From the NCBI GenBank assembly GCA_017942035.1, contig JAGAVG010000055.1, positions 1-52,558 on the forward strand: a stretch of DNA of 52,558 nucleotides, written 5' to 3'. The notes beneath the pieces are model-generated. The model saw only the letters and a list, made by a program, of their open reading frames with translations, was not told the DNA's origin and made no database searches. The translations under genes and the position numbers were made by a program. This DNA is from a bacterium. Its GTDB lineage: Bacteria; Cyanobacteriota; Vampirovibrionia; Gastranaerophilales; Gastranaerophilaceae. The number at the start of each line of letters is the position of its first letter. Positions within the stretch are counted from its first letter, which is position 1. Of this stretch, positions 20,223-48,813 are shown piece by piece.

Positions 20223-20262
20223 AAAACTCGCACCAAATTTTATATTTTGGTGCGAGTTTTTT
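20223..20262. terminator. Bidirectional terminator hairpin at outer end of element copy 2
   Basis: 15-bp perfect stem (AAAACTCGCACCAAA / TTTGGTGCGAGTTTT) followed by T6 on the plus strand, so it ends transcription from the aminopeptidase gene. On the minus strand it would stop transcription from the promoter at 20299-20271. Confidence 0.7.
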
Positions 20263-20396
20263 ATAGCCTTATTATACAATATTTTCCACCACATTTCAAG
20301 TGGTGTTTTGTCGTTTTTTGATGATTTTTTGAATTTTAAGAAGGTATGTTTTAGTGGATTTCAGGCCCACTCGCACCAAAATATAAATTATGGTGC
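20230..20396 (+). repeat. 167-bp inverted-repeat element, copy 2
   Basis: Bounded by 27-bp inverted repeats (20230-20256 and 20370-20396) matching at 25 of 27 positions. Inside are a CACCAC/GTGGTG hairpin and T-rich runs. It ends 44 nt before the start of a prepilin-like gene. Same length and arrangement as the copies at 39200 and 47761. Confidence 0.9.
20271..20299 (-). promoter_or_regulatory. Promoter inside element copy 2, pointing away from the prepilin gene
   Basis: On the minus strand TTGAAA (20299-20294), 17-nt spacer, TATAAT (20276-20271). The predicted start near 20264 is followed at once by the hairpin at 20260-20223 and TTTT, giving a predicted RNA of about 45 nt. Confidence 0.6.
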
Positions 20397-20440
20397 ATGA
20401 ATTTAAAGAGTCGTTTAAGTCTGAAAAGGAGGCTGAAAGG

Positions 20441-21340
20441 ATGAATATATTTGAAGAACAGAGGATTAGAGGTCAGGAAGGCAAGCCGATATCGTCATTA
20501 ACTACCCTCGCCCCTTGTGGGAGAGGGCAGGGTGAGGGGTCAAAATTGTTACATAAAACCCTCTCCCGAATTTGTAAGTTCGCATTCTGCTCACTAACAA
20601 ATTCAACCCTCTCACATAGAGAGAGGGTAAGAAGTAGGGTAGACTTTAGTCTACCGGAAAAACTGGATTGCCGCCTTGCTGGTCGTCGTAAAACCGCGTT
20701 TACATTGGCGGAAGTCTTAATCACTCTCGGAATAATTGGGGTTGTGGCGGCGATGACCATGCCAACTTTAATTCAAAAGCATCAGGAGCGGGTTACGGTT
20801 AATAAAGTTAAGAAGTTCTATTCTGTCATGTCGCAGGCGCAATTATTAGCAATCAAAGATCATGGTTATTTAGATGAGTGGGATGTGTCGGATGGACGTA
20901 CAAAAGAAAGTGCTGAAAAACTCGCGGAGTATCTTAAACCTTATTTAAAAATAGCCAAAGATTGTGGTACATCTAGCGGCTGTCTTCAATACGGCAAACC
21001 AATACAATTGCTAAATGGTGAAGAGCACTTCAATTACGATTCAGACAACAGATTTTATAAATTAATTTTAAACGATGGGAGTTATATATGGTTAAGGGCA
21101 TCTATGGGTGCATATTGTGCAAGTTTAGATAACAATATTTTAAATGCTTGCGGGGCTGTATGGATAGATATTAACGGTAAAACTCCTCCTAATACATTGG
21201 GAAGAGACATATTATATTTTATAATGACAAAAAATAGTCTTAAACCCTCGGCTATAAATGATTGTAATCTGAATTCTTATGGTTGGGATTGTGCTGGATG
21301 GATTTTAGAAAAAGGCAATATGGATTATTTGAAAAAATAA
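20441..21340 (+). CDS. Type IV prepilin-like protein with an 86-residue repeat-derived leader
   Basis: 299 residues from the ATG at 20441, which has AAGGAGG eight bases upstream; an earlier in-frame ATG at 20390 lies in the inverted repeat. The class III signal TAFTLAEVLITLGIIG starts only at residue about 85 (cleavage expected A^F, Glu at +5), followed by a hydrophobic helix and a globular domain with several cysteines (DCGTSSGCLQYG, NACGAVWIDINGK). The leader (EEQRIRGQEGKPISS..., HRERVRSRVD) is encoded by dispersed repeat DNA, and no ATG, GTG or TTG start lies closer to the signal. Close paralogue of the protein at 47971. Likely processed by a prepilin peptidase and exported as a minor pilin or pseudopilin. 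Confidence 0.8.
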   Translation: MNIFEEQRIRGQEGKPISSLTTLAPCGRGQGEGSKLLHKTLSRICKFAFCSLTNSTLSHRERVRSRVDFSLPEKLDCRLAGRRKTAFTLAEVLITLGIIGVVAAMTMPTLIQKHQERVTVNKVKKFYSVMSQAQLLAIKDHGYLDEWDVSDGRTKESAEKLAEYLKPYLKIAKDCGTSSGCLQYGKPIQLLNGEEHFNYDSDNRFYKLILNDGSYIWLRASMGAYCASLDNNILNACGAVWIDINGKTPPNTLGRDILYFIMTKNSLKPSAINDCNLNSYGWDCAGWILEKGNMDYLKK

Positions 21341-39192: not shown

Positions 39193-39232
39193 AAAAAACG
39201 CACCAAATTTTATATTTTGGTGCGAGTTTTTT
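39193..39232. terminator. Bidirectional terminator hairpin, element copy 3
   Basis: CGCACCAAA / TTTGGTGCG stem, flanked by A6 on the left and T6 on the right, so T-runs follow on both strands. Placed at the outer end of the element. Confidence 0.65.
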
Positions 39233-39366
39233 ATAGCCTTATTATACAATATTTTCCACCAATTTTCAAGTGGTGTTTTGTTGTTTTTTGTGAAATTTTT
39301 GAATTTTGAAAGGGTATGTTTTAGTGAATTTCAGGCCAACTCGCACCAAAATATAAATTATGGTGC
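39200..39366 (+). repeat. 167-bp inverted-repeat element, copy 3
   Basis: Terminal repeats at 39200-39226 and 39340-39366 are identical to those of copy 2. Homology to copy 4 continues past the element (ATGAATTTAAAGGATAATTT, then GGAGGATAAAAGT) into the start of the prepilin gene. Confidence 0.9.
39241..39269 (-). promoter_or_regulatory. Promoter inside element copy 3, pointing away from the prepilin gene
   Basis: Minus strand: TTGAAA (39269-39264), 17-nt spacer, TATAAT (39246-39241), followed by the hairpin and T6 at 39224-39193. Confidence 0.6.
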
Positions 39367-39409: not shown

Positions 39410-40255
39410 ATGATAACAGAGGATCAGAGGGCAAGAAGACAGGAAGGCAAGCAGGTAAACCCCTCACCCCAGCCCTCTCCCACAAGGGGCGAGGGAGTAA
39501 ATAGTAGGGTAGACTTTAGTCTACCATTAATAACTGGATTGCCACGCTCACTCCGTTCGCTCGCAATGACGAAACCCGCGTTCACTTTGGCGGAAGTTTT
39601 GATTACTCTCGGGATAATCGGTATTGTGGCGGCGATGACGTTGCCGGCGCTTATTCAAAATCATAGAAATCAAGTAGCCGAAACAAGGCTTAAGAAATTC
39701 TATTCAGCAATCAATCAGGCGATTATTGCATCTGAAGCTGTTAATGGTGACAGGACAGAATGGCATTCTTCATCAGTATATGATGTTCCGGAAAGCGGGC
39801 GCAATGAGCAAGCTAAAGTCTGGTTTGACACTTATTTAAAGCCTTATATAAAGGTTATTGATGAGGGTTACAGCTCGGATAATCGCTTTATAGTTTACTT
39901 TTCTGATGGTTCAGCTTTAAAGTTTCTGAATGATGATTGTTTAAGAGATTTTTTATTTTATATAGGAAATCCGGAAAAGTGTGACAACAAAATATCTAAT
40001 CCGTATGGACGCTGTAAATTTGCTTTTCTTTATGCTCCCGGGTACTCTGATCACTCATACTGGAGCTATTCAGGCAGAAATTTTGAACCATATAAATATC
40101 TGTGGAACGGTAATATAACTTCATTATATACCGGTGAAGGAGTATATACCAGTACTGCTTGTAATAGTAGCGGCGACGGGAGATACTGTTCCGCAATTAT
40201 TCAATACAATAACTGGAAGATTCCGAAAGATTATCCGAGAAAAATTTTATACTAG
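39410..40255 (+). CDS. Type IV prepilin-like protein with repeat-derived leader
   Basis: 281 residues from ATG 39410, eight bases after GGAGG. The prepilin signal PAFTLAEVLITLGIIG has Phe at residue 58, so the leader would be 57 residues, encoded by the same dispersed repeats as its relatives (EDQRARRQEGK, ...PSPTRGEG, LPRSLRSLAMTK). A second ATG at 39566, supplied by the GCAATGACG end of a repeat, would give a classic five-residue leader (MTKPA) but has no ribosome site. The C-terminal domain (KFYSAINQAIIASEAVNGDRTEWHS, FIVYFSDGSALKFLNDDC) differs from the other two proteins. Probably a minor pilin or pseudopilin. Confidence 0.82.
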   Translation: MITEDQRARRQEGKQVNPSPQPSPTRGEGVNSRVDFSLPLITGLPRSLRSLAMTKPAFTLAEVLITLGIIGIVAAMTLPALIQNHRNQVAETRLKKFYSAINQAIIASEAVNGDRTEWHSSSVYDVPESGRNEQAKVWFDTYLKPYIKVIDEGYSSDNRFIVYFSDGSALKFLNDDCLRDFLFYIGNPEKCDNKISNPYGRCKFAFLYAPGYSDHSYWSYSGRNFEPYKYLWNGNITSLYTGEGVYTSTACNSSGDGRYCSAIIQYNNWKIPKDYPRKILY

Positions 40256-47753: not shown

Positions 47754-47793
47754 AAAAAACGCACCAAATTTTATATTTTGGTGCGAGTTTTTT
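47754..47793. terminator. Bidirectional terminator hairpin, element copy 4
   Basis: CGCACCAAA / TTTGGTGCG stem, A6 before and T6 after. Serves the gene at 47142 on the plus strand and the element's own promoter on the minus strand. Confidence 0.65.
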
Positions 47794-47927
47794 ATAGCCT
47801 TATTATACAATATTTTGGGACACTTTTCAAGTGCTCATTTTGATTTTTTAGGTGATTTTTTGAATTTTGAAATGGTATGTTTTAGTGAGTTTCAGGCTTA
47901 CATGCATCAAAATATAAAAAATGGTGC
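47761..47927 (+). repeat. 167-bp inverted-repeat element, copy 4
   Basis: Left terminal repeat 47761-47787 is identical to copies 2 and 3; the right one (47901-47927) has diverged (CATGCATCAAAATATAAAAA...). Same length. The inner hairpin differs in sequence (CACTT / AAGTG), yet the -35 and -10 boxes are unchanged. Confidence 0.88.
47802..47830 (-). promoter_or_regulatory. Promoter inside element copy 4, pointing away from the prepilin gene
   Basis: Minus strand: TTGAAA (47830-47825), 17-nt spacer whose sequence differs from the other copies, TATAAT (47807-47802), then the hairpin and T6. Confidence 0.6.
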
Positions 47928-47970: not shown

Positions 47971-48813
47971 ATGAATATAGAAGAACAGAAGGCAAGAGGT
48001 CAGGAGGGCAAGCCGATATCGTCATTAAATACCCTCGCCCCTTGTGGGAGAGGGCAGGGTGAGGGGTCAAAGTCATTACATAAAACCCTCTCCCGAATTT
48101 GTATGTTCGCATACTGCTCACTAACAAATTCAACCCTCTCACAAAGAGAGAGGGTAAATAGCAAGGCCGCATTCACTTTGGCCGAAGTTTTAATCACCCT
48201 AGGGATAATCGGGGTTGTTGCGGCGATGACGTTACCTTCTTTAATTCAAAAGCATCAAGAGCGGGTTACGGTTAACAAGGTTAAGAAATTTTATTCTGTC
48301 ATGTCTCAGGCACAATTATTAGCAATCAAAGACCATGGTTATTTAGATGAATGGGATGTGCCTGACGGAACAACAAAAGAAAGTGCAGAAAAATTCATGA
48401 GTTATCTCAAGCCGTATTTAAAAATAGCAAGAGATTGCGGTACTTCTGCAGGATGTCTTGAGTATTCTCAAACTACTGTTAAATATCTTAATGGTACTCC
48501 AAGAAATTTAAATTATGATACAAATAATAAGTACTATAAATTAATTTTAAACGATGGAACTTATATGTGGTTAAGAACTGTAACAGGTGCGTATTGTGCA
48601 AATCCAGAGAGTAAAGAATCTTGTGCGACTGTATGGATCGATGTTAATGGAAAAAATCCGCCTAATACAATAGGACGTGATATTTTTAATTTTGGGATTA
48701 ATAAAAATAATGTGAGACCTACGGGTAATAATGGTGATTGCAGGCTTAATGGCGCCGGTTGGAGCTGTGCTGAATATGTTTTACAAGGCAATATGGATTA
48801 TTTGAAAAAATAG
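47971..48813 (+). CDS. Type IV prepilin-like protein with repeat-derived leader, paralogue of 20441
   Basis: 280 residues from ATG 47971, eight bases after GGAGG. The signal AAFTLAEVLITLGIIG has Phe at residue 68, giving a 67-residue leader. An internal ATG at 48103 would give a 23-residue leader but lacks a ribosome site and is a Lys codon in the paralogue. The mature part is very similar to the protein at 20441 (QKHQERVTVNKVKKFYSVMS, YLKPYLKIA, DCGTSAGCLEY), but diverges in the C-terminal third (NNVRPTGNNGDCRLNGAGWS). Four cysteines may form disulphides after export. Confidence 0.82.
   Translation: MNIEEQKARGQEGKPISSLNTLAPCGRGQGEGSKSLHKTLSRICMFAYCSLTNSTLSQRERVNSKAAFTLAEVLITLGIIGVVAAMTLPSLIQKHQERVTVNKVKKFYSVMSQAQLLAIKDHGYLDEWDVPDGTTKESAEKFMSYLKPYLKIARDCGTSAGCLEYSQTTVKYLNGTPRNLNYDTNNKYYKLILNDGTYMWLRTVTGAYCANPESKESCATVWIDVNGKNPPNTIGRDIFNFGINKNNVRPTGNNGDCRLNGAGWSCAEYVLQGNMDYLKK

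Follow-up and report, generated by a model that had tools for sequence, protein, structure and literature searches.

A 167-bp element preceding prepilin-type genes in a Gastranaerophilales genome: a probable invertible promoter

The fimS switch of Escherichia coli is a single 314-bp locus with 9-bp repeats, which is served by FimB/FimE and belongs to chaperone-usher fimbriae. In Bacteroides fragilis, about a dozen polysaccharide promoters are reportedly inverted by Mpi, an invertase of the serine type. The Mpi regulon (Coyne 2003) and an inversion of the type IV pilin coding sequence at one locus of Moraxella bovis (Marrs 1988) are both cited in PMC11868660, as are the invertible promoters, or invertons, of gut bacteria (Jiang et al. 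2019; see also PMC11892184). PhaseFinder has yielded 4686 invertons across 54,875 genomes (PMC11868660). The median is 8.5 per Bacteroidota genome and the maximum 181 in any genome, with mixed kinds represented (PMC11892184).

The element described here was found in a window of 52,558 nucleotides, the whole stretch of DNA that was analysed, which constitutes contig C4 of an 84-contig, 1.99-Mb Gastranaerophilales assembly. It is very probably an invertible promoter (inverton) that phase-varies approximately 100 or more prepilin-type surface proteins. The original prediction had overlooked the two traits that lead to this reading, namely terminal repeats resembling recombination sites and a promoter directed away from the gene. 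As in the invertons of gut bacteria, a promoter lies between inverted repeats, the targets are surface-related, both orientations are seen and a site-specific recombinase is found nearby, in this case in relatives. Known inverton sets differ in two respects: here one element is repeated about 110 times, always before the same gene family, and the sites double as terminators. With the Mpi regulon it would share the inversion of many surface-gene promoters in trans by one recombinase, the candidate here being a tyrosine rather than a serine enzyme and the targets being about 110 pilin genes rather than polysaccharide promoters. The likeness to fimS and FimB/FimE lies in the candidate enzyme, a tyrosine recombinase with one domain, and in a flippable promoter before a pilus subunit gene; unlike fimS, the element has many copies of 167 bp, its sites are palindromic and its targets resemble type IV prepilins. 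Moraxella bovis likewise varies a type IV pilin through DNA inversion, but of the coding sequence at its one locus, whereas promoters would be inverted here at many loci. The original prediction that no described element has these properties was too strong, as invertons are a described kind; what is new is this scale and the dedication to pilins. The literature searched contained no paper linking Gastranaerophilales with phase variation, an absence that is not proof of novelty.

Three complete copies of 167 bp had been predicted in the window, and all are real: copy A (20230–20396), copy B (39200–39366) and copy C (47761–47927), each on the plus strand and in the orientation termed OFF below. 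The fourth, copy D (1–162), is a minus-oriented copy truncated at the contig edge, with its gene expected beyond base 1. The genome-wide number is larger than these four, at about 110, and 110 distinct contexts were collected. The conserved 24-mer core gives 59 + 53 matches in the genome at up to three mismatches, against 0 for a reversed-pattern control. The aligned length is 165–168 bp, and the shorter examples (110–162) are truncated by contig ends. The earlier suggestion that constant length with a variable interior reflects functional constraint is supported. In the stretches analysed, those surrounding the copies and the prepilin genes, neither a spread of many lengths nor a lack of prepilin enrichment was seen.

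The 167-bp element is absent from 58 relatives and from 382 other genomes of the family, as searched by blastn or pattern. It is also absent from a genome contig database, with the genome’s own records left out, and from viral contigs. In G001 and G002, two genomes of the same genus, the regions upstream of the prepilin genes hold no comparable element. Among relatives, the sole version found is a diverged one that was reached through the recombinase.

Both ends of the element are 24-bp palindromes with a central spacer. The left end of copy A (20230–20253, plus strand) has the form GCACCAAA-8-TTTGGTGC, in full GCACCAAA-TTTTATAT-TTTGGTGC, and together with a T-run reaching 20262 it also makes a terminator hairpin. 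The right end (20373–20396, minus strand) is inverted relative to the left one. Core sites of tyrosine recombinases are expected to be built in this way, as a palindrome around a central spacer, which makes the ends candidate loxP-like recombination sites in mutually inverted arrangement. Inverted repeats bounding a short segment at both ends are what an inverton should show. The 27-bp terminal inverted repeats of the original prediction are therefore real as inverted repeats but understated, each repeat being itself a palindrome with a spacer. The conserved unit extends past the element into a leader with the ribosome-binding site AGGAGG (20397–20440, plus strand).

Between the sites lies the promoter TTGAAA-N17-TATAAT, which matches 11 of 12 consensus bases and is located on the strand leading away from the gene (20271–20299, minus strand, in copy A). 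The equivalent positions are 39241–39269 and 47802–47830 on the minus strand in copies B and C, and 93–121 on the plus strand in copy D. TTGAAA at the N17 spacing is kept in 96 of 98 copies, and in the copy alignment the promoter columns are 99.7–100% identical compared with a mean of 92.9%. A promoter shared by the copies had been predicted and is present; the strong one faces away from the gene, on the opposite strand. A one-way promoter within the segment is a further property of invertons. A second strongly conserved block, GGTATGTTTTAGTGANTTTCAGGCC, occupies element positions ~115–138 (for example, 20344–20367 in the window); it may serve as an operator, as an accessory site for the recombinase or as a weak promoter in the forward direction.

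The left site carries TTTTTT on its inner side and an A-run on its outer side. This outer AAAA is present in 99 of 104 copies versus 11 of 103 control stretches, and only 4 of 98 copies have a T-run on the gene side. Apart from the A-run, the left flanks are mutually unrelated; the right flanks correspond to one of two conserved leaders. A left-type flank on the right side occurs in four copies (L115, L068, L073 and L092). In the common orientation, the short transcript is predicted to form a strong hairpin followed by a U-run (−16 kcal/mol, z −5.1), and read-in from upstream is predicted to do likewise (−17.4 kcal/mol, z −6.1). When the element is flipped, the predicted hairpin lacks the U-run. 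The common orientation is called OFF because its promoter would fire into the predicted terminator.

The proposed mechanism begins with a strong promoter of the sigma-70 type, flanked by two palindromic loxP-like sites that are inverted relative to each other. While OFF, this promoter would fire away from the pilin gene, and transcription would halt almost immediately at the hairpin and A/T-run terminator formed by the site. The same left site, with its inner T-run, would also block read-through arriving from the upstream gene. A tyrosine recombinase would invert the segment between the sites. In the resulting ON state, the promoter would point toward the leader, the terminators would be without T-runs and the pilin gene would be transcribed. 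What we infer from sequence extends to inversion in vivo and its rate, to actual transcription and to a purpose in pilin variation, antigenic or adhesive. A wider scheme, for which the chances appear evenly balanced, is that one single-domain tyrosine recombinase runs the ~110 near-identical switches in trans with nearly all of a diverse set of pilins silent and one or a few on per cell, that the sites serve as bidirectional terminators and that sister genera use poly-G/C slippage instead.

The genome encodes one single-domain tyrosine recombinase, of 181 amino acids (C69:88232), with PF00589 at residues 24–167. A single catalytic domain of ~180–200 amino acids is characteristic of the FimB/FimE type, and this protein has that size. 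It falls under the NCBIfam cut-offs for tyrosine-type DNA invertases (48 bits vs 222 for PRK09871; 30.9 vs 221 for PRK09870), and is at most FimB/FimE-type in its way of working. With this protein as the query, 48 loci were recovered in named genomes, most of them labelled Candidatus Gastranaerophilales. Many have an inverted-repeat pair just 3′ of the recombinase gene, mostly spanning ~130–220 bp. These pairs usually precede glycan or other genes; in the closest relative, the yak abomasum metagenome-assembled genome (MAG) RGIG9312, a prepilin gene follows. RGIG9312 has two recombinase-inverton-prepilin loci together with further related copies. Its recombinases share 108 and 112 identical residues with the C69 protein over 185 and 193 columns (~58–61%), and its site is identical to the right site described here at 18 of 24 positions. 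By this association with similar sites, the C69 protein is likely to be the invertase of the element. A second, diverged recombinase-like gene of ~175 amino acids follows the inverton next to the small recombinase at loci of relatives (L301, L313, L314, L317, L332 and L343), and is perhaps a partner or regulator.

It is conceivable, if rather doubtful, that the inverton is flipped by XerC/XerD, a longer integrase or a large serine recombinase in place of the C69 protein. Such enzymes are encoded in the genome, namely a pair of Xer-like proteins, a pair of longer integrases and several large serine recombinases, and the C69 gene adjoins no copy of the element there. Set against this are the C69 homologues that adjoin inverted-repeat pairs in many Gastranaerophilales, and the yak MAG homologue beside an inverton-prepilin pair with a similar site.

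The orientation could be resolved at 87 loci, of which 86 are OFF and one, L115 (C77:56946), has its promoter directed toward its gene. The gene side of the L115 copy (1200–1367) bears the left-type outer half-site (AAATTTGGTGC), which counts against the inversion model because simple strand exchange in the spacer predicts otherwise. At the contig ends L068 and L073, the element has its left flank on either side, and the reverse-complement flanks match perfectly over 112 and 90 bp as far as the contig end. An assembly graph yields such double junctions where both orientations occur, although there is some chance that these palindromic ends are artefacts of assembly. L092 adds a third left junction of the ON type. 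In RGIG9312, the flanks of L345 and L346 are 93% and 89% identical; the 133-bp interiors reach 94% identity if one of them is inverted but 51% if not. Among 12 prepilin loci examined in that genome, the promoter faces the gene only in L345. Both orientations between constant flanks, as expected of an inverton, are thus present in assemblies: in L115 versus the other 86, at the contig ends and in L345/L346. The locus L046 was discarded as an ON example, since the gene there is divergent and has a promoter of its own. Contigs that end at element positions 140–150 were ambiguous as evidence of inversion and left unused.

The predominance of one orientation would also suit a fixed module copied with the prepilin genes, in which the ends are terminators or operators and a weak forward promoter in the GGTATGTTTTAGTGA block drives the gene. 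The strong conservation of positions ~115–138 fits such a module as well. This explanation is improbable in view of the flipped L115, the presence of both junctions at two contig ends and the clean between-site inversion that separates the two RGIG9312 loci. Moreover, the sole strong and invariant promoter is turned from the gene toward a terminator, an arrangement that would be hard to understand if the segment did not invert.

The element is tied to a single kind of gene. Of the copies with the usual leader, 79 have 480 bp or more assembled on the gene side, and a prepilin-type gene follows every one of them (79 of 79); this count comprises 78 scored copies and L089, where FALAEVLITLGIIGIVAAM appears further on. 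In the window, these genes are at 20441–21340 (copy A), 39410–40255 (copy B, P0001) and 47971–48813 (copy C, P0002), all on the plus strand. The start codons are mostly ~40–45 nt after the element, in agreement with the predicted distance of 43–44 nt. Of the two proposals in the original prediction, a regulatory cassette associated with prepilin-like genes is upheld and a MITE is not. A MITE or other non-autonomous transposon that lies near pilin genes by chance would be present, as is seen here, in numerous nearly identical copies that share one length and end in inverted repeats, yet it was rejected as very improbable given the non-random placement before one gene family in every testable copy, flanks listed for all copies without visible target duplications, a right flank that is a conserved gene leader and no copies elsewhere in the bacterial family (382 other genomes).

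P0001 and P0002 score above the cut-off for the prepilin cleavage/methylation domain TIGR02532, and P0001 is also matched by DUF6613. The prepilin N-terminus has 133 matches in the 2-Mb genome. Across 76 pilins compared, mean identity is 63% over the first 50 residues of the mature protein and 23% over the remainder, where no pair exceeds 90%.

The same gene family carries a different feature in two other genera, G003 (L253–L266) and G008 (L267–L296), where poly-G/poly-C tracts of ~8–11 bases are located near prepilin start codons. In G003, 10 of 11 prepilin genes with poly-G near the RBS and ATG have their pilin frame one base off that ATG, and these 10 frames become open immediately ahead of the tract. 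Of 23 prepilin loci inspected in G008, most have poly-G or poly-C near the start. Slippage in the tract would be expected to switch such genes. The occurrence of these tracts at the same gene family supports phase variation as a common theme.

These observations suggest that uncultured gut Gastranaerophilales may run a very large phase-variable pilin repertoire. The ~110 switches provide a natural replicate set for the study of inversion bias, a concrete recombinase-site pair is available for testing and phase variation would gain a lineage.

Several minor features of the prepilin genes were recorded. In-frame repeats (CCCTCTCCC...GAGAGGG and CTCGCAATGAC types) are located between the start codon and FTLAEV, at 20470–20690, 39440–39570 and 48000–48160 in the window, and encode long variable leader peptides that prepilin peptidase presumably removes. 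In the leaders of L046, L187, L168, L195 and L198 the cleavage motif itself is partly repeated in tandem (FTLAEVFSSHFAGxRK before FTLAEVLITL). A minority of prepilin genes have no element and an ordinary upstream region (33380 and 52220 in the window; L018, L180, L191, L198 and L200). Several of these element-free genes apparently adjoin a divergent regulator-like gene, a putative regulator.
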